Source: Clostridium sp. CX1 (GTDB lineage: Bacteria; Bacillota; Clostridia; Clostridiales; Clostridiaceae). From it: DNA of 64,000 nt. Below the pieces are notes generated by a model that was not told where the DNA came from, ran no database searches, and saw only the letters and a program-made list of their open reading frames with translations. How positions within the stretch are numbered: position 1 is the first letter of the stretch; the number at the start of each line of letters is the position of its first letter. Positions 9,589 to 29,110 of the stretch are shown piece after piece. Location: contig NZ_JAODOO010000017.1 in assembly GCF_025398335.1 (NCBI RefSeq), positions 28,224 through 92,223 on the forward strand. Direction: 5' to 3'. Both the position numbers and the translations under genes were made by a program.

Positions 9589-9611
9589 TTTTATCGATGA
9601 GAGGCTTTATT

Positions 9612-11486: not shown

Positions 11487-11503
11487 TATAACTCCTTCTT
11501 ATT
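11460..11503. terminator. Shared terminator of convergent btuD and cobU
   Basis: A 17-pair perfect inverted repeat (arm AATAAGAAGGAGTTATA) with a ten-base loop that contains the btuD stop codon; the far arm reaches the cobU stop. It would terminate transcription from both sides and overlaps coding sequence. Confidence 0.8.
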
Positions 11504-12050: not shown

Positions 12051-12148
12051 GTCCATATCTCCTTATAATACTATTTAATAATTGCAAGACCATTTTATTA
12101 TATTTCTTAGTCTGCTTTTATCCTCTTAATTTTCTATTGAATATGTAA

Positions 12149-12898: not shown

Positions 12899-12947
12899 TT
12901 TTTGTTTCCCCCATCATTTTTTAAGCTTGTCTTTTGATTTAAAAAAC

Positions 12948-13750: not shown

Positions 13751-14998
13751 TTAATCTAAATTTGGTAAGGTTGAGCCTCCGAAAGGCATGAGAATTACCT
13801 TAGAATCTTCCCCAGTTTCTTTGAAAGCAGCTTCCACAGCACTTTGTGCATCGCTAAAAGGCTCCATAAATATACTTCTTACAAATCCTTCTTCAAGTTC
13901 AGAAACTAGGTATACCTTACACCTTTTTAATATCATAGCAATTGCTGCTGCTTTATGACCTCCTAATTGAAAATTCTTTTTTACTTGTTCTATCATATCT
14001 TCAGGTTTTTCTGCTTCTAACATCCAGTTCTCAAATACCTTTTCTCCTAATCCTTCCCTGCAGGAGGCAACTAATATTATTATCCCACCTTCTTTTACCG
14101 CATGTTTGGAGTTGTCCAACGCTTTTTGGGCTTGATATAAGTTTAAATCCTTAGGGTATCCTCCCGGTGTTGTGATAACAATATCCGCTTTTTCTTTTAT
14201 TCTTATCTTATAAAAACTATCTAAAAACTTACAGCCTTCTCTATGAGCTTTTATATAGTGACCGGCTACCGCTTTAATTATTTGTTTGTTACTATCTAGT
14301 ACTACATTTACTATAAAGTCTATAGGTACAAACTTTTCTACAGTTTCTATATCCATTCTTACAGGATTATCTTTTACATTCCCCGTTGTTGCTTTTTCAT
14401 GCACCATTTTGCTATGATTTGCCTGAATAGCTGCCCTTGTTGAAACTCCCGGCATTATGGCCTTGGCACCTCCGCTGTATCCTGCAAAATAATGATATTC
14501 TATATTTCCTAAGCAAATTCTTCTGTCAGCTTTAACAACAATTTTACTAATGTCCACCGGCGTTCCCTCTGATGTTACTCCAAGATGCACAAACTCTGTT
14601 GAACTGCTGTCTATGCAGTTTATTTTTTCATATATCTCTTTACCAACTAAATATTTTTTTTCTTCCTCTGTGTGAGATCTATGACTACCAAGAGCAAATA
14701 CTATGGTAATATCCTGATCCTTAATTCCAGCACTATTTAGTTCTTCTATTACTACAGGTAGAACTATTTTACTTGGCATAGGTCTGGTTATATCACTAGT
14801 AACTATTACTACTTTCTCTCCTGGTTTTACTATGTCCTTTAATCTGCTGGACGCAATAGGGTTTTCCATCGCCCTTCTGACCTCATCTGCACCAGTTAGC
14901 TCTATTTTCACCTCGTTAGGCTCTAATATGCCCAAAATATTTTCACTATCTATGTCAAAGTTCATCTTTCCCTTTCCAAATCCAAAACTATATTCCAT
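13751..14998 (-). CDS. LarA-family nickel-dependent hydroxyacid racemase (proposed malate racemase)
   Basis: A 415-residue member of the LarA family, whose nickel-pincer (NPN) cofactor supports racemisation of 2-hydroxyacids such as lactate and, in characterised homologues, malate. From the ATG at 14998 the residues matching Lactobacillus LarA are all present: H106 in GSHRS, H169 and K179 in HYFAGYSGGAK (ten residues apart, as in LarA H174/K184), and H195 in QANHSKM (LarA H200). A TTG at 15004 is too close to the ribosome binding site. No larB, larC or larE maturation gene is in the window. The gene follows iolG after an intervening hairpin. I infer D-malate to L-malate; lactate racemisation is the main alternative. 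Confidence 0.88.
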   Translation of the reverse strand: MEYSFGFGKGKMNFDIDSENILGILEPNEVKIELTGADEVRRAMENPIASSRLKDIVKPGEKVVIVTSDITRPMPSKIVLPVVIEELNSAGIKDQDITIVFALGSHRSHTEEEKKYLVGKEIYEKINCIDSSSTEFVHLGVTSEGTPVDISKIVVKADRRICLGNIEYHYFAGYSGGAKAIMPGVSTRAAIQANHSKMVHEKATTGNVKDNPVRMDIETVEKFVPIDFIVNVVLDSNKQIIKAVAGHYIKAHREGCKFLDSFYKIRIKEKADIVITTPGGYPKDLNLYQAQKALDNSKHAVKEGGIIILVASCREGLGEKVFENWMLEAEKPEDMIEQVKKNFQLGGHKAAAIAMILKRCKVYLVSELEEGFVRSIFMEPFSDAQSAVEAAFKETGEDSKVILMPFGGSTLPNLD

Positions 14999-15025
14999 CC
15001 CCAATTTCCCCCTTATTTTTAAATA

Positions 15026-15072
15026 AAAACAGTAGAATTAGAATAAAGGACTTTATGCTAATCTACTGTTTT
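15026..15072 (-). terminator. Terminator or attenuator between iolG and the LarA-type gene
   Basis: A 15-pair stem with one bulged A, loop of about 16 bases, followed by a run of five Ts on the minus strand. Only about 20 bases separate it from the larA ribosome binding site, so larA is probably expressed by read-through at a lower level than iolG. Confidence 0.75.
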
Positions 15073-15086
15073 ATTTAACTTTTGAA

Positions 15087-16097
15087 TTACTCTATTATTT
15101 TTATTGGTCTTTTCTCTTCATAGGACTTTCTTGCAGCCATTGCAATTATAATTGGCTTTAATCCATCTATGCCTTCAACAGGAGTTTTGGTATCATTTTT
15201 GATTGCATTAAAGAACTGTCTTAGTTCCTCCACAAAGGAATCCTTATATCTTTCTAAGAAGAAATATTTAGGCTTATCAGCAAACACTCCTTCTGAAGTG
15301 CTAAGTACAGCTGAAGATGGAGTATCATTACTTACCGTTACCCCTCCCTTAGAACCGAATACTTCAACTCTTTGATCATATCCGTAGGCAGCTCTCCTGC
15401 TGTTATCTATAACACCTATAGCTCCATTTTTGAATTTTAGTGTAATTAAGGCTGTATCTACATCTCCAGCTTCTCCAATAGCAGGATCTACAAGCACTGC
15501 TGCATTTGTATATACCTCTTCTACCTCACTTCCAGATAGATATCGTACCATATCAAAATCGTGGATAGTCATATCCATGAACATTCCACCAGAAACCTTA
15601 ACATACTCAATTGGCGGCGGCTCTGGGTCTCTAGAAGTAACCTTAATGATATGAGGGTCACCTATTTTTCCTTCTTTTATAAGCTCATGTACCTTTCTAA
15701 AGTTGTGATCAAATCTCCTGTTAAAACCTACCTGAAACTTAACTCCTGCCTTTTTAACGGCATCGAGAGCAGCAACTATCTTTTCAAGATCAAAATCTAT
15801 AGGCTTTTCACAAAAAATATGCTTTCCTGCTTCAGCAGCTTCTATAGTTATAGTTGAATGGGTATTGGTTGAAGAACATATGAGAACTGTATTTATCTCA
15901 GGATCTTTTAATATATCCCTATAGTCTTCATAAACCTCTTCTATTCCTATTCCCTGTGCCCATTCAATTATCTTATCTGCGTATATATCGGCAATTGCCT
16001 TAAGTCTTATATCTGGAAAATTATTGACTATATTCTCCCCATGTAGTTTTCCTATTCTTCCTGCACCGATTATTCCAAGGACAATGTTATTTGACAT
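15087..16097 (-). CDS. iolG: Inositol 2-dehydrogenase
   Basis: NAD-dependent oxidation of myo-inositol to 2-keto-myo-inositol (scyllo-inosose). This GFO/IDH/MocA protein of 336 residues has the nucleotide-binding motif GAGRIGKLH at 11-19, the catalytic lysine in CEKPID (K98), and the catalytic pair D175/H179 in MDMTIHDFD. AGAGGTTAA precedes the ATG. It is the last of the inositol genes proper, after iolE. Related sugar dehydrogenases share the fold, but iolE, iolD and iolB next to it settle the pathway. It might also accept scyllo-inositol or D-chiro-inositol. Confidence 0.92.
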   Translation of the reverse strand: MSNNIVLGIIGAGRIGKLHGENIVNNFPDIRLKAIADIYADKIIEWAQGIGIEEVYEDYRDILKDPEINTVLICSSTNTHSTITIEAAEAGKHIFCEKPIDFDLEKIVAALDAVKKAGVKFQVGFNRRFDHNFRKVHELIKEGKIGDPHIIKVTSRDPEPPPIEYVKVSGGMFMDMTIHDFDMVRYLSGSEVEEVYTNAAVLVDPAIGEAGDVDTALITLKFKNGAIGVIDNSRRAAYGYDQRVEVFGSKGGVTVSNDTPSSAVLSTSEGVFADKPKYFFLERYKDSFVEELRQFFNAIKNDTKTPVEGIDGLKPIIIAMAARKSYEEKRPIKIIE

Positions 16098-16171
16098 TTT
16101 TAACCTCTCCCATCTAATGCTACTGGTATTTTTTATCAGATCTTTTTCGGATTAACTCCCAGTACTCCTAT

Positions 16172-17068
16172 CTATAAGCCAGTTTGCTCTTTTATAAATT
16201 TTCTTGCCTTAATTGCATATTCTAAAGGATTCGCTTTGGCTGGGTCTTGTTCAGCCTCAACAATAAACCATCCTTCATAATTATTTTTGTCTAAGATTTT
16301 GAAAAGAGGGGCATAATTAATCATCCCATCACCTGGAACAGTAAAGACTCCATGCTTAACTGCATTAAGAAAGCTCATCTGTTCCTTATAAACTTTATCT
16401 AATACTTCTTCTCTTATATCCTTTAAATGTACGTGTTTTATTCTATTTATATACTTATTTAAAACCACCTCTGGGTTTACCTGTGAAAAAGTAAGATGCC
16501 CTGTATCAAATAGTAAATAAACTAACTCTGGGTCTGTCATTGCCATCAGCTTATCTATTTCCTCTAGAGTCTGTACTCCCGTCCCCATATGATGGTGATA
16601 AACAATGTTCATATCTTGCTCTTTAGCAAGTTTTCCAAGCTCCTCTAAGCCTCTTGCAAGCTTAACCCATTCCTCCTCTGAAAAATGAGGCTTCCTACTT
16701 ATAACAGGCATATCTATCATTCCCTGAATGCTGTGGCCCTGTTCCGCTACAACAATCACCTCTGCTCCCATTTCCTTTAGAAAATCTCTATGCTTTATAA
16801 AGGCTTCAGCAGTTTCTTCAAAGGGTTTAGTAGTTAAAAAGGAACTAAACCAAGCGCTGGCTATACTTATACCCCTTAGTTCTAAAGCTTTTTTTAATAC
16901 TTGAATATCTCTAGGGTACTTATTCCCCACCTCACTTCCTGTAAATCCTGCAAGTGCCATTTCACTTATACATTGCTGAAAGGTATTTTCTCTCCCAAGC
17001 TCAGGCATATCATCATTTGTCCATGCTATAGGAGCTATCCCAAGTCTTACTTTATTTTTATCTAACAT
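16172..17068 (-). CDS. iolE: Inosose dehydratase
   Basis: Dehydrates 2-keto-myo-inositol to 3D-(3,5/4)-trihydroxycyclohexane-1,2-dione. A 298-residue TIM-barrel of the xylose-isomerase-like superfamily with the IolE start GIAPIAWTNDDMPELG, then the metal-site regions VYHHHMGTGVQT, LLFDTGHL and HVHLKDIR, and a final glutamate in WFIVEAEQD. The length is normal. GGAGGAATA precedes the ATG, and iolD ends 21 bases upstream. Neighbours iolD and iolG confirm the role. Confidence 0.94.
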   Translation of the reverse strand: MLDKNKVRLGIAPIAWTNDDMPELGRENTFQQCISEMALAGFTGSEVGNKYPRDIQVLKKALELRGISIASAWFSSFLTTKPFEETAEAFIKHRDFLKEMGAEVIVVAEQGHSIQGMIDMPVISRKPHFSEEEWVKLARGLEELGKLAKEQDMNIVYHHHMGTGVQTLEEIDKLMAMTDPELVYLLFDTGHLTFSQVNPEVVLNKYINRIKHVHLKDIREEVLDKVYKEQMSFLNAVKHGVFTVPGDGMINYAPLFKILDKNNYEGWFIVEAEQDPAKANPLEYAIKARKFIKEQTGL

Positions 17069-17089
17069 ACTATTCCTCCACCCATCTCC

Positions 17090-19024
17090 CTAATATTCTC
17101 TAGCTTTTTTCATTTCTTCTTCTAATTCTTCACGGGCTTTCCTTATACTTTCCTTATTGGATACCTCTGCAATGCCTACTCGCCACCAGGATTCATAATC
17201 ATGAGTCATAGTTTTTGGCAGTATCTTAATGTCAATTAAGGTGGATACAGTTTGTTTTTTAGAATCTTCAATGGCTGTCCTTAGTTCTCCTACAGTTTTA
17301 ACCCTATAGGTTTTACATCCATAGGCAGCGGCACTCATAGCAAAATCTATTGGAACTAAGCCACCATCCAGCTTGCCTGTTTCCTCATTTCTAAATCTAA
17401 ACTCAGTTCCAAAGCTTCCCATGCCCTTACCCATTTGCAAATTATTTATACATCCAAATGACATGTTGTCAAAGACTATAATATTTATTTTCTTTTTCTC
17501 CTGAATAGATGTTGGTAATTCTGAATGAAGCATCATATATGAACCATCCCCTAATAGTGAATACACTTCTTTTTCTGGAGCTGCAATCTTAACTCCTAAA
17601 GCTGCATTTACCTCATAGCCCATACAGGAATAGCCGTATTCCATATGGTAGCTGTTAACTGTCTTTGGTCTCCATCCCCTCTGCAGATCCCCTGGAAGAC
17701 TTCCTGAAGAACCTACCACTATTGCGTCATCATCCAGCATTTCATCTAGCATCCCTAATACTTTAGTTTGAGTAAGATAAGCTCCTGTTTTCTTTCCAAA
17801 CTCCTCTAGTACATGATCTAAGTGACCAGCCACTTCCGGCTTAAAAGTTTCACCGGTATATTCTAAATTAAATAATCTATCTAATTCAGCCTGCCACTTA
17901 TCTTTAGCTTCTTTTATTTCCTCTTTATAGCATGATTTATATCCAACCTTCTCCAATTCATCACCTATAGCTTCCAAGGCTGCTTTAGCATCTGCAGTAA
18001 CTTTAATTGCATCTAGTTTATAGGAATCAAATTCAGCTATGTTTATATTCAAAAATTCAACCTCTGGATTTTGAAATAACCACTTAGAGGAGGTTGTAAA
18101 ATCTGTATATCTAGTTCCAACACCTATTATAAGATCTGCCTCCTTGGCAATAGTGTTCGCTGCTAAGTTTCCTGTAGCTCCTATTCCTCCTAAATTTAAT
18201 TTGTGACTCCACAAAACAGCACTTTTTCCCGCCTGTGTTTCTCCAAAAGGAATATTAAATCTCTCCGCAAAACCTTTAAATACTTCCGCAGCTTCAGAAT
18301 ACCTTACCCCACCACCGCAGATTAGTATAGGCTTTTTCTTCCTAAGAATTAGCTCTGCTGCCTCTTTAACCATTTCCTTTGTTGCAGGCCTTCTTTCTAT
18401 TCTGTGAATTCTCTTTTTAAAGAAATACTCTGGATAATCATAGGCTTCACCCTGAACATCCTGTGGAAGTGCTAATGTAACAGCTCCTGTATCTGCAGGG
18501 TCTGTCAGTACCCTCATAGCATTTATAGCTGCTGTCATTAGCTGCTCCGGTCTGCTTATTCTATCCCAGTACTTACTTACTGCTTTAAAGGCATCATTTG
18601 TGCTTATATTTAAATTATGAAAATGCTCTACCTGCTGCAATACAGGGTCTGGCTGCCTTGCTGCATATACATCTCCTGGTAAGAAAAGTACAGGAATTCT
18701 GTTTGCAGTTGCAGTTGCTGCTGCTGTCACCATATTAGCTGCCCCTGGTCCTACAGAGGAGGTGCAGGCATATATCTGCTTTCTGTGCATTTGCTTTGCA
18801 AACCCCATAGCTGCATGAGCCATTCCCTGCTCATTTCTACCTTGATGAACTATTAAGTCTCCTGAATCTTCTTCTAGGGCTTGACCTAGTCCAAGTACAT
18901 TTCCATGTCCAAAGACTGTAAATATCCCCTTAACAAATTTAGTTACAGTGCCATCAAACTCTATATACTGGTTATCAAGAAACTTAACAAGAGCCTGAGC
19001 CATTGTAAGTCTTATAGTTTTCAT
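17090..19024 (-). CDS. iolD: 3D-(3,5/4)-trihydroxycyclohexane-1,2-dione hydrolase
   Basis: A thiamine-diphosphate enzyme that hydrolyses the cyclic dione to 5-deoxy-D-glucuronate, opening the inositol ring. Its 644 residues match IolD. The N-terminal domain has the cofactor-activating glutamate in [17 protein letters not shown] near residue 64; the C-terminal domain has [13 protein letters not shown] near 491 with the downstream asparagine in [10 protein letters not shown]. The middle domain carries the usual AGKSAV and GTRYTDFTT stretches. AGAGGTGAA precedes the ATG. It lies between iolB and iolE in a continuous minus-strand run. Confidence 0.96.
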
Positions 19025-19105
19025 ATTTTCACCTCTTAAAAACTCTTACGAGTATATTACTTAAGCTGATTTTTTTAAAATTCACTTTATATTATTAACT
19101 GAATT

Positions 19106-19900
19106 CTATTTATCCGGCCAAATTTTAGCATCCTTTTCTGTAACCCATAAATGTTCAGGAACAAAGGTTGGAGTTATATATGGATTTCCATCTAAGTGTC
19201 TTATAACCCAGATGTAGTACATTGCATATCCTGGTGCTGTAGTTTGAGGATGAGTAGCGTTATCTAATATTTTTACAGTATCATTATTTTTTATTTTTAC
19301 TACGTCCTCTCCTAGTTCAGAGAAGCCATATCCATTTTCAGGGTTAAACTTATAGAAGTATATCTCTGGCTGTGGATGATAGTGTGGAGGGTAGCTCGAC
19401 CATTTTCCTGGATAATCTACTACTTCCCCTACTACTAGGTTTGAATAATCTGCATTTGAATAATCAAAAACAGTTCTTACAATTCTTGTGGATGCCTCCT
19501 TCATTGTTCCAGCTCCACGATTTTCACTTCTACATTCTTTATTTGTATATAATTTAGATTGAAATACCTTGTCATTAGTGGTCTTCGTAACAGAGATTTC
19601 CGTATCTTCCGAAAGACCAGTAATTTTTACCTCTACATCCTTCGGTACATGAAGCACCCATGGATCCTCATCAAAACAAGATTTTCTTGCAGCTATTTCT
19701 TTTTTTTCTTCATATTCAAAAACCACTTCACCTTTTATTAAAAGAAATGCCCTTTCTTTACTGTCTTTATCTATTTCCACCTGCCCTTTAGCAATTCTCA
19801 ATATGCCAAAGTCCATCATAGTATTATGCTCTTTTTCATCAATTGCAGCTATAGAGTTATAGCCATAACTAAAAGCTTCCTTTTGTCTAATTCTCAACAC
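19106..19900 (-). CDS. iolB: 5-deoxy-glucuronate isomerase
   Basis: Isomerises 5-deoxy-D-glucuronate to 2-deoxy-5-keto-D-gluconate. A 264-residue bicupin with the metal-binding PPHYHPQPEIYFYKF near residue 170 and NATHPQTTAPGYAMYYIW further on. Translation starts at GTG (19900) with GAGAGGTG upstream. In the usual pathway its product is phosphorylated by IolC and cleaved by IolJ, but neither is in this window; instead it is directly preceded by transketolase subunits. Its product is therefore the likely branch-point metabolite of the alternative lower route. Confidence 0.94.
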   Translation of the reverse strand: MLRIRQKEAFSYGYNSIAAIDEKEHNTMMDFGILRIAKGQVEIDKDSKERAFLLIKGEVVFEYEEKKEIAARKSCFDEDPWVLHVPKDVEVKITGLSEDTEISVTKTTNDKVFQSKLYTNKECRSENRGAGTMKEASTRIVRTVFDYSNADYSNLVVGEVVDYPGKWSSYPPHYHPQPEIYFYKFNPENGYGFSELGEDVVKIKNNDTVKILDNATHPQTTAPGYAMYYIWVIRHLDGNPYITPTFVPEHLWVTEKDAKIWPDK

Positions 19901-19934
19901 CTTACGTCACCTCTCCATAAATTTTAAATATAAG

Positions 19935-20909
19935 CTATTTGCTACACTTTCTTTCTAACACTCTTTTAACCTTTGTAATTATGTGGTTGTAGGTAAGTCC
20001 ATACTCTTCTTTTAAATAATCTACCGGTCCAACTTGACCAAATCTATCTTCTACACCTACCCTTTCAACAGGTACTGGTACACTCTCTACAACAACCTCC
20101 GCCACTGCCGAACCTAATCCGTTAAGAATACTGTGATTTTCAGCAGTTACAATTGCTCCTGTCTCCTCAGCGCATTTTATTATTGCTTCTTTATCTATAG
20201 GCTTTAAGGTAAATACATTTTCAACTCTTACAGAAATTCCTTCTTTATCCAACTCTTCAGCCGCTTTAAGGGCCTCTTCCACCATTATGCCCGTAGCAAA
20301 GACTGTTACATCCTTGCCGTCTCTTAGTGGTATAGCCTTTCCGATTTCAAAGGTAGATCCTTCTGCATAAATCTTTGTGGCATTTTTCCTTAGAAGTCTT
20401 GTATAAAACACACCATATTTGTAAGCAATCTGTCCTATTATATCTTTAAGCATGGTACTATCTACAGGTTCAATAATGGTTATATTAGGAACATTTCTTA
20501 ATATTCCCATATCCTCAAAAGGCATATGAGTGCCTCCATTATAAGCAGCAGTTACTCCTGGATCACTACCGGTTATTTTCACATTTAACTTTCCATAACC
20601 ACAGGATAAAAATATTTGATCAAAGCACCTTCTTGTAGCAAAAGGACCAAAGCTGTGGGCAAAGGGAATCAGCCCTACTGCAGACATGCCTGCTGCTGTT
20701 CCCATCATATTAGCTTCCTGTATTCCAACATTAAAGGTTCTTTCAGGATATTTCTTCTGGAAAGACACCATTCCCATAGAACTCATTAAATCAGCATCAA
20801 GTACAACTACATTCTCATCTTTTTCAGCCAACTCCATAAGAGTCTCACAGTACATAGTTCTCATTTCTTTTTCTTCTTTTACTCTTTTTTCAGCTAATTT
20901 TACAACCAC
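19935..20909 (-). CDS. Transketolase, C-terminal subunit (inositol cluster)
   Basis: The pyrimidine-binding and C-terminal domains of a split transketolase, 324 residues. The catalytic glutamate is E65 in NVGIQEANM. Downstream, where ordinary transketolases read GSHAGLTVGEDGATHQ, this protein has GSDPG (114-118) and AAYNGGTHMP (121-130), so the substrate-side loop has changed while the cofactor residues remain. The start is a GTG sharing its G with the stop of the N-terminal subunit (TAGTG), implying translational coupling. I infer transfer of the two-carbon ketol unit from 2-deoxy-5-keto-gluconate to an aldose phosphate; a conventional pentose-phosphate role is the alternative. Confidence 0.9.
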   Translation of the reverse strand: MVVKLAEKRVKEEKEMRTMYCETLMELAEKDENVVVLDADLMSSMGMVSFQKKYPERTFNVGIQEANMMGTAAGMSAVGLIPFAHSFGPFATRRCFDQIFLSCGYGKLNVKITGSDPGVTAAYNGGTHMPFEDMGILRNVPNITIIEPVDSTMLKDIIGQIAYKYGVFYTRLLRKNATKIYAEGSTFEIGKAIPLRDGKDVTVFATGIMVEEALKAAEELDKEGISVRVENVFTLKPIDKEAIIKCAEETGAIVTAENHSILNGLGSAVAEVVVESVPVPVERVGVEDRFGQVGPVDYLKEEYGLTYNHIITKVKRVLERKCSK

Positions 20910-21754
20910 TATTTCTCCACCTCCTTCAGCTTATCTTCTAAAAGTCTTATAGCTTCTTTCATCTGTTCTTCGCTTACTGTAATATGGTGGTTACTTACAA
21001 TGCCTTCACCAAAACAATAACCTTTACTTTTTATAGTGTTAAGCACTATAACCGAAGGTTTTCCCTTGTTCTCCTTAGCTTTAATAACTGCATTATATAT
21101 CTCCTCAACATCATGGCCACAAACCTCTTGTGAAAACCATCCAAAGCTTTGGAATTTAGCCACTATATCCCCTAAATCATTTATATCCTTTGTAAATCCA
21201 TCTAATTGCTGCTTATTATAGTCAACAAAGGCTATAAGATGATCTGCCTTTTGTTGGGCAGCACACATAACCATTTCCCATACCTGACCTTCCTGAATTT
21301 CTCCATCGCCAAGAATTAGATAAATATAATTGCTTCTTCCTTTTAGTCTGTTTCCAATTGTTACTCCTAAAGCTGTTGATGCACCTTGACCTAGAGAGCC
21401 TGTAGTCATATCTATACCTGTAGTAAGATTTCTATCACAATGGCTTGGTAAATGAGTAGCTGGTTTGTTTAGGGTAAGTAGGTCTTCTTTAGGAAAATAG
21501 CCCTTTAATGCTAAGGTAGAGTATACCGCAGGGCCGGCATGTCCCTTTGAGCATACAAGCCAATCTCTTTCCTCCCAGCTTGGGTTTTTCGGATCTATAT
21601 TCATTACGTCACCATAAAGAACTGCTAATGTATCAACTACTGACATAGCTCCACCCATATGTCCAAAACCTAAGGTGCCAATAGTTCTTATAGTCTCAAT
21701 CCTTATTTTAAGAGCCAGTGCTTCTAGCTCCTTCTTTTTTTCTAAGCTTAACAT
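20909..21754 (-). CDS. Transketolase, N-terminal subunit (inositol cluster)
   Basis: The thiamine-diphosphate-binding half of a split transketolase, 281 residues. Conserved blocks are GFGHMGG near 30, CSKGHAGPA near 68, TGSLGQG 118-124, LGDGEIQEG 148-156 and DYN 178-180. The usual GHPDM/PGVE stretch is replaced by LPSHCDRN and TTGID near 102-115, close to where acceptor and donor sugars bind. It begins one base after the PGK-like gene stop, with GGAGG in that gene's end, and overlaps the C-terminal subunit by one base. The pair should form a heterotetramer. Confidence 0.92.
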   Translation of the reverse strand: MLSLEKKKELEALALKIRIETIRTIGTLGFGHMGGAMSVVDTLAVLYGDVMNIDPKNPSWEERDWLVCSKGHAGPAVYSTLALKGYFPKEDLLTLNKPATHLPSHCDRNLTTGIDMTTGSLGQGASTALGVTIGNRLKGRSNYIYLILGDGEIQEGQVWEMVMCAAQQKADHLIAFVDYNKQQLDGFTKDINDLGDIVAKFQSFGWFSQEVCGHDVEEIYNAVIKAKENKGKPSVIVLNTIKSKGYCFGEGIVSNHHITVSEEQMKEAIRLLEDKLKEVEK

Positions 21755-21755
21755 A

Positions 21756-23024
21756 CTATACCTCCACTTCCCGTGTATAAGCCTTTTTCATTGCTTCAAT
21801 TAAAGGTAATTTTACTCCAGATAAGAACCTAACCATAGCACCACCAGCAGTACAAACATAATTTATCCTTGACGTATCAATAAAACGCTGTGCGGCACTA
21901 ACAGTATCTCCTCCACCTATAACAGAATATCCTTTTGCTTCTGCTATAGAAGTCCATATTCCCTTAGTTCCATTTTCAAAAATTTTATTTTCATAAACTC
22001 CTGCTGGTCCATTGACAAATATAGTCCCTGCTTTAGAGAGTTCTTTCTTAAACAACTCTATAGTTTCACAACCTATATCCATGAACATATGGTTTAAAGG
22101 AAGTTTATCAATAGAAGTCTCTTTTCTCATACCACCTTCTTCATAGGCTAAATCTAGAGGATAAACTATCTTTTCACTATACTTTTCTAAATACTCCTTT
22201 GCAGAGCCTATAAATACATCTAGTTTTCTATCCTTAATAAATTTTTCGTTAACCTCTCCTATGTTATAGCCCTTAGCCATCAACATAATATTGCCTGTAA
22301 CTCCGCAGCATAATATTTTGTCTGCAGTTCCATTTTCTAATACTTGTTTCATCATTCCAAAGGCATCAGATATCTTAAGTCCACCAAGTACAAAAACAGA
22401 GGGTTTGCTCGGGCATTCCATAACCTTTGTAAGTGCACTTAACTCTTGAAACATAAGCAAACCTGCTGCCGTAGGAAGTAATTCCTGAAAGGCTACCATT
22501 GAAGGAGCATTTCTGTGAGCTGCTGCAAAGGCATCATTTACATAGAAGTCTACTATTGGAGCAAGACTTCTTACTAAATAGGTATTCAGCATATCCTTAG
22601 CCTCAAGTTTTACTGCATCCTCAAAGGTTGATATTTCTTCTGTTAGATATCTAAGATTTCCTAGGAGAACTACTTCTCCTGATTTTAAATTCTTAACTGC
22701 CTCCTGTGCTGCAGGACCACAAACATCGTCAATATATTTAACTTCTCTACCTAGCTTTTGTGATAACTTTTCTGCATGTTCTCCCATTGGTATTAAATTG
22801 TGATAGTCCAGCGTATCTCCCTGGTGGGCAATTATAGCTACTTTTGCTCCCCTGTCTATAAGATATTTAACTGTAGGAATACTCTTATTTATTCTATTTT
22901 CACTTACAATCTTTTTAGTTTCTATGTCTATAGGAGAGTTTATATCAAGCCTTAATAAAACTCTTTTATCCTTATAGTCAAACTCCTCCATAGACCTTAT
23001 TCCAACATCTACTTTGACATCCAT
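21756..23024 (-). CDS. Archaeal-type phosphoglycerate-kinase-like acyl-phosphate kinase
   Basis: A PGK-fold protein of 422 residues resembling archaeal rather than bacterial PGK: RLDINSP at 25-31, AHQGD at 66-70, VNDAFAAAHR at 162-171 and GGGDTVSA near the end. Of the five arginines that hold the 3-phosphate in yeast PGK, four have counterparts (R25, R44, R125, R171), but the one in SHLGRP is aspartate here (D70). Nucleotide-side residues GGLKISD and NGPAGVYE are kept. The start overlaps the GAPDH-like gene by 16 bases. I infer malyl-1-phosphate plus ADP to D-malate plus ATP; ordinary PGK activity cannot be excluded. Confidence 0.88.
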   Translation of the reverse strand: MDVKVDVGIRSMEEFDYKDKRVLLRLDINSPIDIETKKIVSENRINKSIPTVKYLIDRGAKVAIIAHQGDTLDYHNLIPMGEHAEKLSQKLGREVKYIDDVCGPAAQEAVKNLKSGEVVLLGNLRYLTEEISTFEDAVKLEAKDMLNTYLVRSLAPIVDFYVNDAFAAAHRNAPSMVAFQELLPTAAGLLMFQELSALTKVMECPSKPSVFVLGGLKISDAFGMMKQVLENGTADKILCCGVTGNIMLMAKGYNIGEVNEKFIKDRKLDVFIGSAKEYLEKYSEKIVYPLDLAYEEGGMRKETSIDKLPLNHMFMDIGCETIELFKKELSKAGTIFVNGPAGVYENKIFENGTKGIWTSIAEAKGYSVIGGGDTVSAAQRFIDTSRINYVCTAGGAMVRFLSGVKLPLIEAMKKAYTREVEV

Positions 23025-24037
23025 TTTCCCAACCCCAAATACTTATTTGTTTCTGTAACTGCTTCAATTCTGTCCCTTTGCATTTCCATAGCTGCTCTTA
23101 TCGCATCTATATTTTCTGGTATAACTACCGCTTCCTGTGGAATATTTATAGCAAACATTATATCCTTACCAGACTTAACAACAGACTCCTCAAATACAGC
23201 TATTTCATACATATCTCCTCTTGGGTTTCCAAGGTCCCTTGCATACCTGAATAAAGACGCATTTCCTAAGAATCCATCAACAAGTCTTACATTTCTTATT
23301 CTTGGATGCTGACTAAAAATATCTAATAGTTCTTCTTTTAATATATCTTCCTTAGGCGTAGCTACAACAGTAATTATATGGCCGTGAGTTACTGGTGTAT
23401 GAACAAGTATCCCTGTAGCATCTACATGAGGCATTATAGTCATAAGATCTAAGGCTTGATGGCTTGGAGCCTTATCTACCTGAAGTGCGTTAGTAAGCCC
23501 TCTGTGGTAATCTCCTGGATCTGCAACTCTTCTTATTATGGTAATTGCAACCTTTTCTACACCAACTTTTCTATCTATGCAGTCTACTGCTCTTATTAAT
23601 CCAGTAGTATTACAGGATGTTAGCTTTAAAAATTGCTTTCCTATACCTTTCTCATAGTTTGCATAGCCATGGAAAAACACATCTGCTACATCATTATTTT
23701 CTCCACCTTGGAATATTGCTTTTTTATTATATTTTTTATAAAGCTCCTTATTTTTAGCACCTATACCAGCACTGGTAGCATCAAGAATTACATCACATTT
23801 TTGAATCAAATCTTCTAGTGTTCCACTTATAGGTATTCCAGCTTCCTTGAATAATCCTTCATTTCCAGCCATCGCATTATATAAGTTATAAGGCATACCC
23901 TTTTCCTTTAAAGCTCTTACCGCTAAAGTAGGCGAAACATCAGCAACCCCTACAAGCTCCATATCTCCTTGCAGAGCAACTCCATCTGCCAATCTTTGTC
24001 CAATAACGCCGTATCCAACAACTCCTACTTTTATCAT
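23009..24037 (-). CDS. Archaeal-type (class II) GAPDH-like semialdehyde dehydrogenase
   Basis: A class II GAPDH-type protein of 342 residues, a form usual in archaea and rare in bacteria. It has the nucleotide-binding GYGVIGQR at 8-15, the catalytic cysteine C142 in LTSCNTTGL, and RRVADP at 169-174. After that, archaeal enzymes usually read a KKGPINAI-like stretch that contributes to phosphate binding; here it is HRGLTNAL (178-185). Overlapping the PGK-like gene by 16 bases, the two form an oxidation/ATP-generation couple. I infer phosphorylating oxidation of malate semialdehyde; glyceraldehyde-3-phosphate is the alternative. AGGAGGAATTAAGG precedes the ATG. Confidence 0.88.
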   Translation of the reverse strand: MIKVGVVGYGVIGQRLADGVALQGDMELVGVADVSPTLAVRALKEKGMPYNLYNAMAGNEGLFKEAGIPISGTLEDLIQKCDVILDATSAGIGAKNKELYKKYNKKAIFQGGENNDVADVFFHGYANYEKGIGKQFLKLTSCNTTGLIRAVDCIDRKVGVEKVAITIIRRVADPGDYHRGLTNALQVDKAPSHQALDLMTIMPHVDATGILVHTPVTHGHIITVVATPKEDILKEELLDIFSQHPRIRNVRLVDGFLGNASLFRYARDLGNPRGDMYEIAVFEESVVKSGKDIMFAINIPQEAVVIPENIDAIRAAMEMQRDRIEAVTETNKYLGLGKWMSK

Positions 24038-24095
24038 CCTTAATTCCTCCTAAAACTCAAATTATACTTATACTCTTTTTAGACAAATCTATCTC

Positions 24096-25331
24096 TTATA
24101 GACCTTGTCTAAGAAGTTCAATTGTATGCTCTTCAACCATTTCTGGAGTAATATCCTTTCTTCTTGCAACCCCTGTTTCAATAGCAGCCTTCGCCACATA
24201 TAAAGCAACCTTTGGTGCTATTCTCAAATCAAAGGCCTCTGGAATAACATAGTCTTCTCTTAACTGATCCTCATTTATAAGTTCTGCTATTGCATAGGCT
24301 GCTGCAATCTTCATCTCATCATTAATTTCGCTAGCACGAACATCTAATGCCCCTCTAAATATTCCTGGAAAAGCTAAGACATTGTTAACTTGATTTGGGT
24401 AATCAGATCTTCCAGTGCATACAACCCTAGCCCCTGCTTCCTTTGCTAAGTTAGGAAGTATTTCTGGGTTTGGGTTTGCCATCGCCATTATTATTGAGTC
24501 ACTATTCATTGATTTAACCATTTCCTGTGTTACACAGTTTGCTGCTGAAACTCCTAAAAATACATCTGCTCCCTTTAGCACCTTTTCAAGATTACCTTGT
24601 TCTTGGTCAGGATTTGTTATTTGAGCAATTTCCTCTTTATATTTGTTCATGCCCTCTGTTCTGCTTTTATATATAGCTCCCTTAGTATCACAAAGTATTA
24701 TATTTTTTGTTCCCATCTTTAACAGAAGCTTTGTTATAGCAATTCCAGCAGAACCAGCACCATTAATAACCACTTTTAAATCTTCAAATTTTTTATTAGT
24801 AATTTTTAGGGCATTAATTAGGCAGGCAGAAGACACCACTGCAGTTCCATGCTGATCGTCATGAAATATTGGTATATTACATATTTCCTTTAATTTATCT
24901 TCTATTTCAAAACACTCCGGTGCCTTAATATCCTCTAAGTTTATGCCGCCAAAAGCAGATTCCATAAGTTTTACCGTCTCTACAATCTTATTTATGTCTT
25001 TAGTTTCTAAGCATATTGGAAAAGCATCCACTCCTCCAAAGGATTTAAATAAAACAGCTTTACCCTCCATAACTGGAAGCCCTGCTGCTGCACCAATATC
25101 TCCAAGTCCCAGTACAGCTGTTCCATTAGTAACAACAGCTACCCAATTTCCCTTTGCTGTATAGTCATATATACAATCATAGTTTTTCTCAATCTCTAAG
25201 CAGGGTTCTGCTACCCCTGGAGTATATGCAAGAGTTAAGTCCTCCTTATTCTTTACCGGCACCTTGCACCTTAAGGCAATTTTTCCTTTGTTATCTTTAT
25301 GAAATTTTAATGCTCTTTCTCTTAATTCCAA
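24096..25331 (-). CDS. Malic enzyme (NAD(P)-dependent, decarboxylating)
   Basis: Oxidative decarboxylation of malate to pyruvate and CO2. A 411-residue bacterial small-type malic enzyme: YTPGVAEPCLEI near residue 32, GLGDIGAAAGLPVMEGKAVLF near 76, LEDIKAPECFEIE with metal-binding acids, FHDDQHGTAVV, and the nucleotide-binding GAGSAGIAI near 192. The start is TTG at 25331 with GGGAGGAA eight bases before. It lies between the transporter and the GAPDH-like gene, so it is part of the inositol cluster. Family members use L-malate, which would require the LarA-type racemase if the upstream enzymes yield D-malate. Confidence 0.93.
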   Translation of the reverse strand: MELRERALKFHKDNKGKIALRCKVPVKNKEDLTLAYTPGVAEPCLEIEKNYDCIYDYTAKGNWVAVVTNGTAVLGLGDIGAAAGLPVMEGKAVLFKSFGGVDAFPICLETKDINKIVETVKLMESAFGGINLEDIKAPECFEIEDKLKEICNIPIFHDDQHGTAVVSSACLINALKITNKKFEDLKVVINGAGSAGIAITKLLLKMGTKNIILCDTKGAIYKSRTEGMNKYKEEIAQITNPDQEQGNLEKVLKGADVFLGVSAANCVTQEMVKSMNSDSIIMAMANPNPEILPNLAKEAGARVVCTGRSDYPNQVNNVLAFPGIFRGALDVRASEINDEMKIAAAYAIAELINEDQLREDYVIPEAFDLRIAPKVALYVAKAAIETGVARRKDITPEMVEEHTIELLRQGL

Positions 25332-25405
25332 TGTTTTTTCCTCCCGTCCTTGCTATTTTCAATTTTAGATAGAAACTCTTTATTGTATGAATAATATTCC
25401 AATTT

Positions 25406-26452
25406 TTATGCTTTTACATTAACCGGTGTATTAGTATTTGTGTTGCTATTTGAATTTGTCTTAGCCTTCTTTTGAGCCTGAGTTCTTAAAACATCCACAT
25501 AAACAGCACCAATTATAACTAATCCTATAGCAACAGTCTGTACGTCTGCTGGTACTCCTAGAAGATTCAGTCCATTTCTAAGTACAGCCATAATCATAGA
25601 ACCTATTAGTGTACCCCATACTGTACCGGAACCACCCATGAAGGAAGCCCCTCCTATGATACAGGCTGCAATAGCATCCGCATCATAGTTTAATCCTGCC
25701 AGCGGAAAAGCAGCGTTAACTCTTCCTACTAAAACTATTCCACAAAGGGCTGCCATAAAACCGCTTAGAGAATAGACTAGAACTAGAGTTTTTGATACAT
25801 TAACTCCTGATAACTTTGCAGCTTCTGGATTACCTCCAACTGCATATATATATCTTCCTTGAGCAGTTCTATTCAAAAATATGTGAAATATAGCGTATAC
25901 AGCTATAACTAATATAAAACTAACTGGAATTAGACCTATTTTCTCTGAACCTAAGAATTGAACAGATTTAGAAAAACCTGATATCGGTGATGCTCCTGTA
26001 ACTATAAGTGCCAAGCCTGCTGCCACATTTTTCATAGCTAATGTAGATATAAATGGATGAGGTAATTTCAATTTTGTAAGCAGTATCCCATTGATAAACC
26101 CTAGAAAAGAGCCAACTACTAGACATAGTATAATTGCCATCATAGCATTAAGGTGCCATTTTGTTATTGCTACTGCCATTACGCAAATAGATAAAGCTAA
26201 TACAGAACCAACAGACAAGTCTATCCCTGCTGTTAATATAGTTAACAGCATACCTACTGAGATTAAACTATTTAGTGCTGATTGATTTGCTATGTTCATG
26301 ATATTTTTAAAAGTTAAAAATTGATCTGAAGCAAAAGTTAAAATAACACAGAGCAATAGTAATCCTAGTAAAGACCCAAATTTAGATAAAATTGCTCTTA
26401 AGGATTTATCTTCTGATACGTTAAACCTATCCTTTTTTCTCTCTTGTTCCAT
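25406..26452 (-). CDS. Sugar ABC transporter permease (RbsC-like), probable inositol importer
   Basis: A BPD-type permease of the ribose/xylose/inositol family, 348 residues, with about eight to ten hydrophobic segments and hallmarks DLSVGSVLAL near residue 79 and GGNPEAAKLSGVNV near 205. It ends in an unusual asparagine/threonine-rich tail. Three bases separate the ATPase stop from the start codon, and the ribosome binding site GGGGGG overlaps the end of the ATPase gene. Inositol as substrate is inferred from the iol genes downstream. Confidence 0.9.
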   Translation of the reverse strand: MEQERKKDRFNVSEDKSLRAILSKFGSLLGLLLLCVILTFASDQFLTFKNIMNIANQSALNSLISVGMLLTILTAGIDLSVGSVLALSICVMAVAITKWHLNAMMAIILCLVVGSFLGFINGILLTKLKLPHPFISTLAMKNVAAGLALIVTGASPISGFSKSVQFLGSEKIGLIPVSFILVIAVYAIFHIFLNRTAQGRYIYAVGGNPEAAKLSGVNVSKTLVLVYSLSGFMAALCGIVLVGRVNAAFPLAGLNYDADAIAACIIGGASFMGGSGTVWGTLIGSMIMAVLRNGLNLLGVPADVQTVAIGLVIIGAVYVDVLRTQAQKKAKTNSNSNTNTNTPVNVKA

Positions 26453-26455
26453 TAC

Positions 26456-27952
26456 TTACACCCCCCCTGAAGCTGCTTTCATAATATTTTCTTGGTTTGC
26501 ATTTTCTCTAGCAAATTCTCCAGTAATCCTTCCCTCATGCATAACAATAACTCTATCACTCATGCCTAGTATCTCTGGCATTTCAGAAGATATCATTATT
26601 ATTGCTGCACCATTAGAGACTAGCTCATTCATAACGTTGTAAACCTCTACCTTTGCCCCTACATCTATTCCTCTAGTAGGCTCATCAAAGATAAATATGT
26701 CTGCCTTTGTATTCAGCCACTTTGCTATAACAACCTTTTGCTGGTTTCCTCCACTTAACTGTCTTACTATAAACTTTTCTGACGGAGGATTTATATTTAG
26801 CTTTTTGATATTTTCTTTACATCTTTCTTTAGACTTTTTCATGTTCAATAGAAACCTAGATTTTATTTTATCGTATGAAGAAATGTTCATATTGAAGGAA
26901 ACAGTATTGCCAAGAATCAAACCTTGTCCCTTTCTGTCCTCCGTAAGAAATGCAATTCCTGATTTCATAGCATCCTCAGGAGACTTTATTCTTACTTTTC
27001 TACCATGAATATATACGTCACCTGAGTTTATCCGGTCTGCACCAAATATTGCTCTAGCAACCTCTGTTCTTCCTGCCCCTACAAGTCCTGCTAGACCTAA
27101 AATTTCCCCTCTTCTAACACTAAAGCTTATGCTCTCAAATACTCCTGTACTTTTCAAATTTTCAACTCTTAAAACTTCTTCTCCTAAGGTTGTGTTCACC
27201 TTTGGAAATTGATGCTCTAAATTTCTTCCAACCATTAGCTTAATTAACTCATCAGTAGTAACCTCACCAATAGGAAGAGTCTTTACCTTTTCTCCATCTC
27301 TCATTACGGTAACTCTATCGCATATCTCCATTATTTCATCAAGTCTATGGGATATAAATATTATAGCTATACCTTTACTTTTTAAATTTTTTACAGTTCT
27401 TAACAACTCTCTTACCTCTCTGTTACTTAAACTGGAGGTAGGCTCATCCATTATAAGAAGTTTTGTTTTAACACTAAGGGCTTTAGCAATTTCCACCATT
27501 TGCTGCTTTCCCATTCCCAATCTATCTATACCTATTCTAGGATCAATCTCCTGACCTAATTCTCTCAATAATTCTGAGGATCTTTTCCTCATTTCTTTTA
27601 TATTAAGCAATCCAGATCTACCATTATTCTTTAACTCTCTACCTAGAAATACGTTCTCTGCCACAGTAAGCTGTTTAACAATATTTAATTCTTGATAAAT
27701 AGCTGTTATACCTAATTCCATGGCATGCTTAGGTCCATTAATTTTAGTTTCTTTTCCCTCTATTAATATCTGTCCTTCATCATTTTTATGAGCTCCTGTT
27801 AAAATTTTAATTAATGTAGATTTACCTGCACCATTTTCCCCAACTAGTCCTAGTACCTCTCCTGGATATACATCTAAGTCTATGTCATTTAAGGCCCGTA
27901 CTCCCGGAAAAATCTTAGAAACACCTTTTAGCTCAATAAACGGTTTTTCCAT
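26456..27952 (-). CDS. Sugar ABC transporter ATPase (RbsA-like, two nucleotide-binding domains)
   Basis: A tandem ATPase of the RbsA/XylG type, 498 residues. The first domain has Walker A GENGAGKST near residue 36, a degenerate signature LGMGKQQMVEIAKAL near 145 and LLIMDEPTSSL. The second domain has a degenerate Walker A region GLVGAGRTEVARAIFG and signature LSGGNQQKVVIAKWL near 404 with FIFDEPTRGIDVGA. This asymmetry is normal for the family. It is the second gene of the importer set; a structured RNA lies between it and the binding protein gene upstream. Confidence 0.93.
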   Translation of the reverse strand: MEKPFIELKGVSKIFPGVRALNDIDLDVYPGEVLGLVGENGAGKSTLIKILTGAHKNDEGQILIEGKETKINGPKHAMELGITAIYQELNIVKQLTVAENVFLGRELKNNGRSGLLNIKEMRKRSSELLRELGQEIDPRIGIDRLGMGKQQMVEIAKALSVKTKLLIMDEPTSSLSNREVRELLRTVKNLKSKGIAIIFISHRLDEIMEICDRVTVMRDGEKVKTLPIGEVTTDELIKLMVGRNLEHQFPKVNTTLGEEVLRVENLKSTGVFESISFSVRRGEILGLAGLVGAGRTEVARAIFGADRINSGDVYIHGRKVRIKSPEDAMKSGIAFLTEDRKGQGLILGNTVSFNMNISSYDKIKSRFLLNMKKSKERCKENIKKLNINPPSEKFIVRQLSGGNQQKVVIAKWLNTKADIFIFDEPTRGIDVGAKVEVYNVMNELVSNGAAIIMISSEMPEILGMSDRVIVMHEGRITGEFARENANQENIMKAASGGV

Positions 27953-27997
27953 TATTCAAACCACCTCAATTTTTGTAAGCTATAAAACTTATTTGAT

Positions 27998-28065
27998 GGG
28001 CCCAACATAGTATTTTGATGCAATTTCATTTTGTAACTCCGTTGGAGTTTTTACTAGTTGGGCTC
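27998..28065 (-). promoter_or_regulatory. Intercistronic compound stem-loop between binding-protein and ATPase genes
   Basis: On the minus strand an outer stem (GAGCCCAACTAGTA with TACTATGTTGGGCCC, slight mismatches) encloses a smaller perfect hairpin AACTCC/GGAGTT. There is no strong U tract. It probably stabilises or caps the abundant binding-protein message and lowers expression of the genes downstream. Confidence 0.6.
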
Positions 28066-28120
28066 ATCTTTCAATTTAATTGCTTTGCTTTATAAAAGCT
28101 ATAATATGGCTATATTATTC

Positions 28121-29110
28121 TTATTTTTTCAAAATCTTATCTAAGTCTGCTTGAGCTTGGTCTACGTTTTCCTTTGATATTACACTTGTTCCAGTATCAA
28201 CTCTAACATCAACCTTTTCACCCTTTGCAGCCTTAACTGCAGTTTCAACACCTAGTTTTCCTATATTGTATGGACTTTGTGCAACTGATGCTGTAAGTTC
28301 TCCTGCTTTTATTGATTTTAAAGCATCTGGAGAACCGTCAAATCCTACTACAGCTACGTTAGCTTTATTAGCTTGCTTAAGAGCTCTTTCAGCACCTAAA
28401 GCCATCTCGTCATTTGAACAGAAAACGCCTTTTACATTAGGATGAGTTTGTAATAAGTTTTCCATTACGGACATAGCTTTGTTTCTATCACTATTTGCAG
28501 GTTGTACTTCTACTACTTTTACTCCAGCAGCTTCAAGTTCTGTCTTGGCACCGTTTACACGTTCATCATGAGTTGCATCACCTAATGCTCCCCTTATAAT
28601 AACTACTTCTGCTCCCTTTCCAATTTTATCAGCTAAGAATTTACCACCAAGTTTACCACCAGCTAAGTTTCCTGTTCCTACAAAAGATTTCTTCTTATCC
28701 CACTTTGCGTCAGTATCTATAAGTACAACAGGGATTTTAGCCTCATCAGCCTTATCAAAGGTAGCTAATGCTGCACTTGGTTGAGATGGTGCTACTACCA
28801 ATACGGATACTTTTTTAGTTATTTGGTCTTCCATAATAGATGTTTGTCCTGCTATATCCGTTTCATCATTTGGACCAAGCACCTTTACTTCTACTCCTAA
28901 AGCCTTACCAGCATCCATTGCTCCAGCCTGAACTATTTTCCAGTAGTCACTATTTAACGCTTTTAATACAACTGCTACATTAGTCTTTCCATCCTTACTG
29001 CCTGATGTCTGCTGACTGTTATCTGCTGCCTTATTTCCACAACCAGCAAAAGTTGATGATAATACCGCTGTAATAGCAAGTATTCCTAAAATTTTTCCAT
29101 ACCTCTTCAT
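28121..29110 (-). CDS. Sugar-binding lipoprotein (RbsB-like), probable inositol receptor
   Basis: Extracellular substrate receptor of the adjacent ABC importer, 329 residues. The signal peptide ends with the lipobox FAGC, giving a lipid-anchored cysteine near residue 23, followed by a polar linker. The type I periplasmic-binding fold is shown by VAVVLKALNSDYWKIVQAGA, DTDAKWDKK, FCSNDEMALGAERAL and VVGFDGSPDALKSI. It is first in the cluster, directly divergent from the AraC-type regulator. Ribose-type and inositol-type receptors look alike; inositol is inferred from context. Confidence 0.9.
   Translation of the reverse strand: MKRYGKILGILAITAVLSSTFAGCGNKAADNSQQTSGSKDGKTNVAVVLKALNSDYWKIVQAGAMDAGKALGVEVKVLGPNDETDIAGQTSIMEDQITKKVSVLVVAPSQPSAALATFDKADEAKIPVVLIDTDAKWDKKKSFVGTGNLAGGKLGGKFLADKIGKGAEVVIIRGALGDATHDERVNGAKTELEAAGVKVVEVQPANSDRNKAMSVMENLLQTHPNVKGVFCSNDEMALGAERALKQANKANVAVVGFDGSPDALKSIKAGELTASVAQSPYNIGKLGVETAVKAAKGEKVDVRVDTGTSVISKENVDQAQADLDKILKK

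Follow-up and report, generated by a model that had tools for sequence, protein, structure and literature searches.

A clostridial gene run predicted to carry inositol breakdown through a transketolase to malate

The canonical pathway of inositol catabolism (IolG-E-D-B-C-J-A) leads through 2-deoxy-5-keto-D-gluconate (DKG), and a locus of Clostridium sp. CX1, which has IolG, IolE, IolD and IolB up to this intermediate in common with it, raises the question of what consumes DKG there. The locus is a run of thirteen co-directional genes on the minus strand, from 29110 to 13751 of the window, as we call the whole stretch of 64,000 nucleotides that was analysed (contig NZ_JAODOO010000017.1, positions 28,224 to 92,223). 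The run encodes, in this order, an RbsABC-type importer, malic enzyme, a type II glyceraldehyde-3-phosphate dehydrogenase (GAPDH), a phosphoglycerate kinase (PGK), the two halves of a transketolase, IolB, IolD, IolE, IolG and a LarA-type racemase. This gene content, order and strand had been claimed by the original prediction made on this DNA, and all were confirmed, every gene being an intact open reading frame (ORF). No IolC, IolJ or IolA was detected in the run with Pfam and NCBIfam; class II aldolases were not searched for across the genome. Quite probably, the run encodes a transketolase-to-malate route in which DKG is turned into malate semialdehyde, then malate and finally pyruvate, and the support for this reading is genomic.

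In the proposed route, IolG, IolE, IolD and IolB would convert inositol to DKG, which is the established chemistry of these families. The transketolase would then move the C5-C6 ketol unit of DKG to glyceraldehyde-3-phosphate, so that xylulose-5-phosphate is formed and malate semialdehyde (3-hydroxy-4-oxobutanoate) is left. Oxidation of this semialdehyde by the GAPDH-like enzyme, with NAD(P)+ and phosphate, would give 1-malyl phosphate, which the PGK-like enzyme would use with ADP to produce D-malate and ATP; LarA would turn D-malate into L-malate, and malic enzyme would convert the latter to pyruvate, CO2 and NAD(P)H. Xylulose-5-phosphate might return to glyceraldehyde-3-phosphate via the pentose phosphate pathway and a neighbouring phosphofructokinase (PFK), or otherwise. 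From the transketolase step onward, we infer every substrate and reaction in this organism. Read from C6, DKG is a ketose with D-threo hydroxyls as in xylulose and fructose, and transketolases need D-threo hydroxyls next to the ketone; the aldehyde left after the cut is D-configured malate semialdehyde, the oxidation of which gives D-malate. Both stereochemical points had been argued in the original prediction, and their derivation by hand agrees with it. Counted by hand, the route is predicted to spend no ATP on DKG and to gain one per malate, whereas the canonical pathway spends one at IolC.

Three of the iol genes exceed the cut-offs of their NCBIfam models: IolD (trihydroxycyclohexane-dione acylhydrolase, 17090-19024; TIGR04377, 979.9 bits against a cut-off of 715), IolE (inosose dehydratase, 16172-17068; TIGR04379, 436.5 against 290) and IolG (inositol 2-dehydrogenase, 15087-16097; TIGR04380, 488.9 against 355). 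IolB (5-deoxyglucuronate isomerase, 19106-19900) is over the cut-off of the Pfam family KduI/IolB (PF04962, 200.6 bits) and under that of NCBIfam TIGR04378 (106.2 against 205). That the low score denotes a different isomerase was considered and dropped: two IolB proteins adjoining IolC in other sampled genomes score 110 and 105 with TIGR04378, and because these score alike, the low value does not speak against IolB identity. Across the host assembly (4.24 Mb in 71 contigs, 99.97% complete) no IolC is over the cut-off; the best match has 119.7 of the 300 bits required, and four IolC-like matches lie below the threshold. The genome-wide check for iolC that the original prediction had named thus came out in its favour; one IolA-type enzyme, discussed below, is encoded elsewhere.

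The transketolase, GAPDH and PGK of the run are extra copies, because the host keeps other genes for all three, namely a glycolytic block of GAPDH-I, PGK, triose-phosphate isomerase, phosphoglycerate mutase and enolase (the housekeeping PGK is on contig C23), a further GAPDH-I that brings the copies to two, and a full-length transketolase together with another split one. The type II (archaeal-type) GAPDH paralogue (23009-24037; NF003251, 418.9 bits against 185; TIGR01546, 315.7 against 232.9) is predicted to be a phosphorylating malate-semialdehyde dehydrogenase. A GTDB genome search for this GAPDH gave 416 loci; the best 80 of them were retained and counted, short stretches included. Among these 80 the enzyme is 73-88% identical to that of the window, and all 80 keep the catalytic Cys142 and His218, which align with those of the archaeal enzymes; all 80 also carry GLTN and HQ where four solved archaeal structures have GP[IV]N and HH.

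The transketolase is divided into an N-half with the thiamine diphosphate domain (20909-21754; PF00456, 158.1 bits) and a C-half with the pyrimidine-binding and C-terminal domains (19935-20909; PF02779 and PF02780). A loop of the C-half is altered: in all 41 operon-type rows it reads GSDPGVTAAYNGGTH or its NGGTH type, against THDSIGVGEDGPTH and THAGITVGEDGASH in the host's two other transketolases. The rows have at least 40% identity to the window's transketolase and hold 37 distinct sequences besides it, the 41 including genes fetched twice; those with stops or unknown letters, with less than 75% coverage or with less than 40% identity were dropped. Every row retains the arginine of the RLLRKN motif, and in 7 rows the arginine of the MRTMYCE motif is substituted or absent. 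His461 and Asp469 of the E. coli transketolase, two residues that shape substrate preference, lie in the loop matching the GSDPGVTAAYNGGTH region. The changes in the GAPDH motifs and in this loop fit an altered specificity, the substrate not being named by them. In a tree, the operon-type rows stand apart from the host's split transketolase with 99/96 support, which is weak evidence because the outgroup consists only of one split and one long-branched full-length transketolase.

The PGK paralogue (21756-23024; PF00162, 373.4 bits; best solved relative 2cun) is predicted to act as a malyl-phosphate kinase. Its Arg-to-Asp change (SHxGRP to AHQGDT) was examined as a mark of lost phosphate binding, and this idea was dropped in view of SHKGEP in the housekeeping PGK of the host. 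Behind the same GAPDH in loci L028, L047, L057, L059-L061 and L080 stands another PGK subgroup, which has 43-48% identity to the PGK of the window and bears an IHQG[SN]D or AHQGSD motif. A 543-residue protein, P0096, combines GAPDH-II and PGK domains in one chain according to its database-listed domains, a hint that the two enzymes act as a couple.

The last gene of the run (13751-15004) encodes a member of the LarAH6 family of nickel-pincer malate racemases (NF052593, 597.3 bits against 500). Its best solved match is the malate racemase Mar2 (6d6z, 422 bits over residues 4-416; the next match has 273), which falls in the same curated LarAH6 family. That a LarA-type racemase would act on malate had been proposed beforehand, and the family match and Mar2 as best solved relative agree with it; the activity of the run's protein is a predicted one. 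Mar2, from Thermoanaerobacterium thermosaccharolyticum, racemises malate with a kcat/KM of 185 per s per mM for L-malate and has none of the six other activities in the table of the same paper, an excerpt of which leaves its cellular role open (PMC7583248). Promiscuous activity on tartrate is mentioned in an excerpt of a later paper (PMC11770544). Protein records of T. thermosaccharolyticum include the GAPDH type at 83% identity and the PGK at 77%, both on contigs of 2,725,585 bases. The malic enzyme (24096-25331; PF00390 and PF03949) is of the short bacterial type, and NAD(P) malic enzymes are nearest to it among solved structures. Near GAPDH-PGK in locus L057, positions 9309-9971 encode a member of the Asp/Glu racemase family, as PF01177 shows for this protein; its ORF cluster covers 7 loci, including L029, L048, L075, L076 and L077. 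This protein is a possible stand-in malate racemase; L029 and L076 have no LarA in the stretch.

The association of the set with inositol genes was followed through 393 genomes of the same class as the host. At E <= 0.001 the GAPDH profile found 26 genomes, 18 of them at 397 bits or more and none between 28 and 397; the remaining eight, at 18.8-27.5 bits over short stretches, were dropped as noise. IolD is over the cut-off in 29 of the 393 genomes and the strong type II GAPDH match is present in 18, with 13 genomes having both, 5 only GAPDH and 16 only IolD. Among the 29 IolD genomes, IolC is found in 13 and type II GAPDH in another 13, no genome has both, and 3 have neither. The LarAH6 racemase is over the cut-off in 13/13 genomes with GAPDH and IolD, 0/13 with IolC, 1/3 with neither, and 4/5 with GAPDH only. 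Fisher tests, uncorrected for relatedness, give p = 7e-13 for GAPDH with IolD, p = 1e-5 for GAPDH against IolC and p = 2e-7 for the racemase with GAPDH. As the original prediction had anticipated, the set thus co-occurs with iolD and excludes iolC in this class sample, and both genomic tests support the transketolase/malate interpretation, by genomic and not by enzymatic evidence. Families f1, f18 and f35 each hold both the IolC and the GAPDH type, which argues for repeated exchange.

GAPDH-I passes the cut-off in 17 of the 18 sampled genomes that have type II GAPDH, and the eighteenth has two fragments of it; the type II enzyme is therefore additional in these genomes. In 10 of the 13 genomes with both GAPDH and IolD, GAPDH adjoins iol genes (G000, G021, G026, G086, G094, G182, G216, G298, G329 and G339). 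In G294 the GAPDH and iol parts lie at two contig ends, both broken inside the racemase gene, and in G279 they are on different short contigs and not placeable. The transketolase halves are beside a GAPDH copy in 11 of the 13, neither in G117 nor on the short G279 contig. The IolC locus L145, read for comparison, instead carries genes for a class II aldolase and for an iron alcohol dehydrogenase. In G142, which has no IolD over the cut-off, transketolase, GAPDH, PGK, racemase and malic enzyme are found with a short-chain and a zinc dehydrogenase in place of iol genes (L136:4051-12657); perhaps this set is fed by another deoxy-keto acid.

The best 80 loci of the GTDB search come from clostridia, spirochaetes, Anaerolineae, Thermotogae, Atribacteria and others, and because the gene arrangement recurs in genomes of several phyla, it is more than chance. 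A gene was counted as present where tblastn covered at least 40% of the query, with identity thresholds of 28-60% by gene; ORF picking sometimes took an antisense ORF over GAPDH or PGK, so that ORF clusters and class locus maps undercount, and the locus counts use tblastn. PGK is found at 77 of the 80 (76 within 200 bases downstream of GAPDH), iolD/E at 38, the transketolase halves at 33 and 32, LarA (at least 28% identity) at 42 and malic enzyme at 22. For the 35 loci with at least 8 kb on both sides, the corresponding numbers are 35 for PGK, 22 for iolD/E, 19 and 18 for the transketolase halves, 22 for LarA and 13 for malic enzyme. Locus L018 has a full-length transketolase in place of the split halves. 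Of 44 loci screened for IolD elsewhere in the genome, L027 and L034 were left out, having iol genes; among the other 42, which lack iolD/E in the stretch, 23 belong to genomes with IolD over the cut-off elsewhere. The idea that this GAPDH replaces the glycolytic enzyme where it occurs without iol genes was mostly rejected, GAPDH-I being over the cut-off in 12 of 17 such genomes; the other five (named records, completeness not given) comprise one with a GAPDH-I fragment and four with none.

A second kind of neighbour was found in two of these loci. A GABA-type (4-aminobutyrate) transaminase gene stands directly upstream of GAPDH-PGK in L054 (8638-9987; TIGR00700, 528.7 bits against 506.65) and L073 (8618-9985), the two proteins sharing 88.6% identity. 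In L054 the pair is followed by genes for malic enzyme and a LarAH6 racemase (557.3 bits against 500), and IolD is elsewhere in that genome; the contig of L073 ends soon after, and that genome has no IolD over the cut-off. Acting on 4-amino-3-hydroxybutyrate, the transaminase would produce malate semialdehyde, and acting on GABA, succinate semialdehyde. Two unrelated sources of what could be the same C4 semialdehyde thus precede the GAPDH-PGK set, which malate enzymes follow; the transaminase, a possible source that needs no sugar, is an independent pointer to the substrate.

Several observations weigh against the route from DKG to malate or against its generality. One coenzyme A-acylating methylmalonate-semialdehyde dehydrogenase (MMSDH, the IolA family) is over the cut-off elsewhere in the host genome (C1:256352-257779). 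It lies near a class III aminotransferase, a PucR-type regulator and an amino acid permease, no iol genes were seen around it, though none were searched for there, and we infer that it serves amino-acid catabolism. The PGK offers no usable sign of its substrate, the arginine mentioned above being absent also from the glycolytic PGK of the host. The co-occurrence statistics ignore phylogeny, five genomes of the class sample carry the GAPDH without IolD, and in G117 the GAPDH is 160 kb from the iol genes and has no transketolase beside it. Among the named genomes, 19 of the 42 loci lacking iol genes are in genomes without IolD over the cut-off, two of which have large IolD fragments; the set therefore has some other use too, or is a remnant of one. 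IolC is over the cut-off in 2 of the 37 genomes (standing for the 38 iol-adjacent loci) that have GAPDH beside iol genes, namely L017, which is Clostridium ganghwense with two IolC copies, and L051; L050 has two IolC fragments at contig ends, of 157 and 143 bits. For 47 and 48 of the 80 loci, some of them short stretches, no split transketolase N-half or C-half, respectively, was detected nearby, and malic enzyme is near only 22. In L064, L069, L070 and L078, GAPDH-PGK stands alone with about 9 kb or more on both sides, and IolD is elsewhere in these genomes. For three LarA proteins encoded in spirochaete loci the score is 386-390, short of the cut-off of 500.

What, then, could the run do instead? 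GAPDH, PGK and transketolase belong to glycolytic and pentose-phosphate families, and the GAPDH retains its catalytic Cys and His, as would be expected if they were ordinary enzymes of central metabolism, co-regulated with the iol genes and feeding triose and pentose phosphates, with malate made and used otherwise. This is improbable, since the host has separate genes for GAPDH-I, PGK and transketolase, since in the class sample the GAPDH goes together with IolD and the malate racemase but not with IolC, and since its active-site motifs differ from those of four archaeal GAPDHs. The GAPDH-PGK pair is also found beside a transaminase, and DKG would be left without a known consumer in the host genome.

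Another kinase might stand in for IolC, either the neighbouring PFK or one of PfkB type, and a class II aldolase would then split the phosphorylated DKG. A precedent exists in SqiK, a PFK-family enzyme that phosphorylates sulfofructose in the sulfo-EMP2 (Embden-Meyerhof-Parnas) pathway (PMC9594981, excerpt), and the host has the four sub-threshold IolC-like matches, the MMSDH and an ATP-dependent 6-phosphofructokinase gene close to the run (31998-32960, plus strand). This PFK nevertheless exceeds the cut-off for ordinary ATP-dependent enzymes (TIGR02482, 389.3 bits against 371.35), is on the opposite strand and has relatives near the GAPDH set in only 5 of the 80 loci (L001, L002, L003, L009 and L012). 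The run contains no aldolase (the genome was not searched for class II aldolases), in contrast to the IolC locus L145 with its class II enzyme, and the racemase found in 13/13 such genomes would have no role, all of which makes a replaced kinase an improbable explanation. Least probable, and very much so, is that the transketolase step occurs as proposed while another dehydrogenase oxidises malate semialdehyde directly, GAPDH and PGK not acting on it. A non-phosphorylating malic semialdehyde dehydrogenase is known in Acinetobacter (PMC11353897, excerpt), but no aldehyde dehydrogenase of that family was detected in the run with Pfam and NCBIfam, and no other part of the set is as constant as GAPDH-PGK (77 of 80 loci), though the loci were picked by GAPDH.

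Several known systems come close to the proposed route. In the canonical pathway of Anaerostipes, the keto acid is cut between C3 and C4 (PMC8355322, excerpt), whereas here the cut is predicted between C4 and C5, in the absence of IolC, IolJ and IolA from the run, and would yield malate instead of malonate semialdehyde. The first step has an analogue in sulfoquinovose breakdown, where the transketolase SqwGH of the sulfo-TK (transketolase) pathway is likewise a dedicated enzyme that transfers the ketol unit of a six-carbon ketose with an anionic end to glyceraldehyde-3-phosphate (PMC9594981, excerpt). The C4 product is isomerised and cut again in the sulfo-TK pathway (same excerpt), whereas the route proposed here would convert it to malate by a phosphorylating oxidation. 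No sulfoquinovosidase or SqvD isomerase is among the Pfam matches of the thirteen genes, and the run resembles the sulfo-TK pathway in its first step only and is not a member of it. The sequence from malic semialdehyde through D-malate to pyruvate, predicted here, has been reconstituted for L-carnitine breakdown, where a monooxygenase generates the semialdehyde and a non-phosphorylating aldehyde dehydrogenase and a D-malate dehydrogenase take the place of GAPDH/PGK, racemase and malic enzyme (PMC11353897, excerpt).

The class sample contains yet another arrangement. In the iol loci of G031, G057, G072 and G117, clusters without IolC encode a transaldolase-family protein of 358-359 residues (L143:6910-7986, L144:7074-8150, L141:7862-8941 and L125:7994-9070) with 64-97% identity among the four, the family being called by Pfam for G031 and G117 and by NCBIfam for G031 and G072. 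An MMSDH accompanies it in G031 and G057, and an acylating aldehyde dehydrogenase in G072 (463 aa; SauS model, 602.6 bits against 600) and G117 (Aldedh by Pfam). In a search of the 393 genomes, the four top transaldolase matches, at 762-778 bits, were those of these four loci; a second copy in G117 followed with 724 and G116, an IolC genome, with 660 and 645 on contigs other than that of its IolD, then five genomes without IolD over the cut-off with 474-518 bits, and lower matches. The transaldolase would transfer a three-carbon unit of DKG to glyceraldehyde-3-phosphate, giving fructose-6-phosphate and malonate semialdehyde, and these loci likely represent a third route for inositol. With one type assigned to each, the 29 IolD genomes comprise 13 of the IolC, 12 of the GAPDH and 4 of the transaldolase type, G117 being placed in the last and G116 in the first. 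We lean slightly towards a general view in which three interchangeable lower halves of inositol catabolism (IolC-IolJ, transketolase and transaldolase) match the EMP, TK and TAL (transaldolase) forms of sulfoglycolysis, and in which GAPDH/PGK is dedicated to malate semialdehyde and malyl phosphate, with other suppliers as well.

The layout of the run and its neighbourhood are as follows. The intergenic gaps range from -16 to 168 bases, a purine-rich stretch lies within 20 bases 5′ of each of the thirteen start codons, the GAPDH and PGK genes share a 16-base overlap, and PGK and the two transketolase genes abut or share one base. A terminator scan gave a single weak minus-strand match inside the run (20041-20024), and the scanned region as a whole yielded 7 matches where chance would give 9.4. 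The importer, encoded on the minus strand like the rest of the run, consists of an RbsB/AlsB-like sugar-binding protein (28121-29110; PF13407, 222.7 bits; best NCBIfam match RbsB with 202.6, below its cut-off of 337), an RbsA-type double ATPase of the ATP-binding cassette family (26456-27952; PF00005 in two stretches) and an RbsC-type permease (25406-26452; PF02653, 147 bits). Judging from the neighbouring genes, its substrate is probably inositol. A divergent gene on the plus strand (29561-31903; PF12833) encodes an AraC-type protein with a long N-terminal part and is a candidate regulator of the run; it falls in a cluster of 6 related ORFs, every one in iol loci, and the PFK gene lies behind it. 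Downstream of the run on the same strand, the cobalamin genes cobU and cobS and a cobC-like histidine-phosphatase gene (11502-13535) are probably unrelated to it.

Soil and gut are rich in inositol and phytate. Among the matches listed from the open-access literature, no paper describes a transketolase or malate route for inositol, and none describes substrate-level phosphorylation by way of malate semialdehyde and malyl phosphate. A search for the terms transketolase, iolC, IolJ and malate found none of them in a 2025 review of gut inositol metabolism (PMC12482443), and an excerpt of another paper mentions iol genes and transketolase, but separately (PMC12130570). Because 13 of the 29 IolD genomes of the class sample lack IolC over the cut-off and carry type II GAPDH, predictions of the end products of inositol may fail for nearly half of such genomes. 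If the route exists, it would give the LarAH6 malate racemases a role, which an excerpt of PMC7583248 leaves open, and would represent a new inositol lifestyle, with an ATP-yielding step on a new substrate for two textbook glycolytic families.

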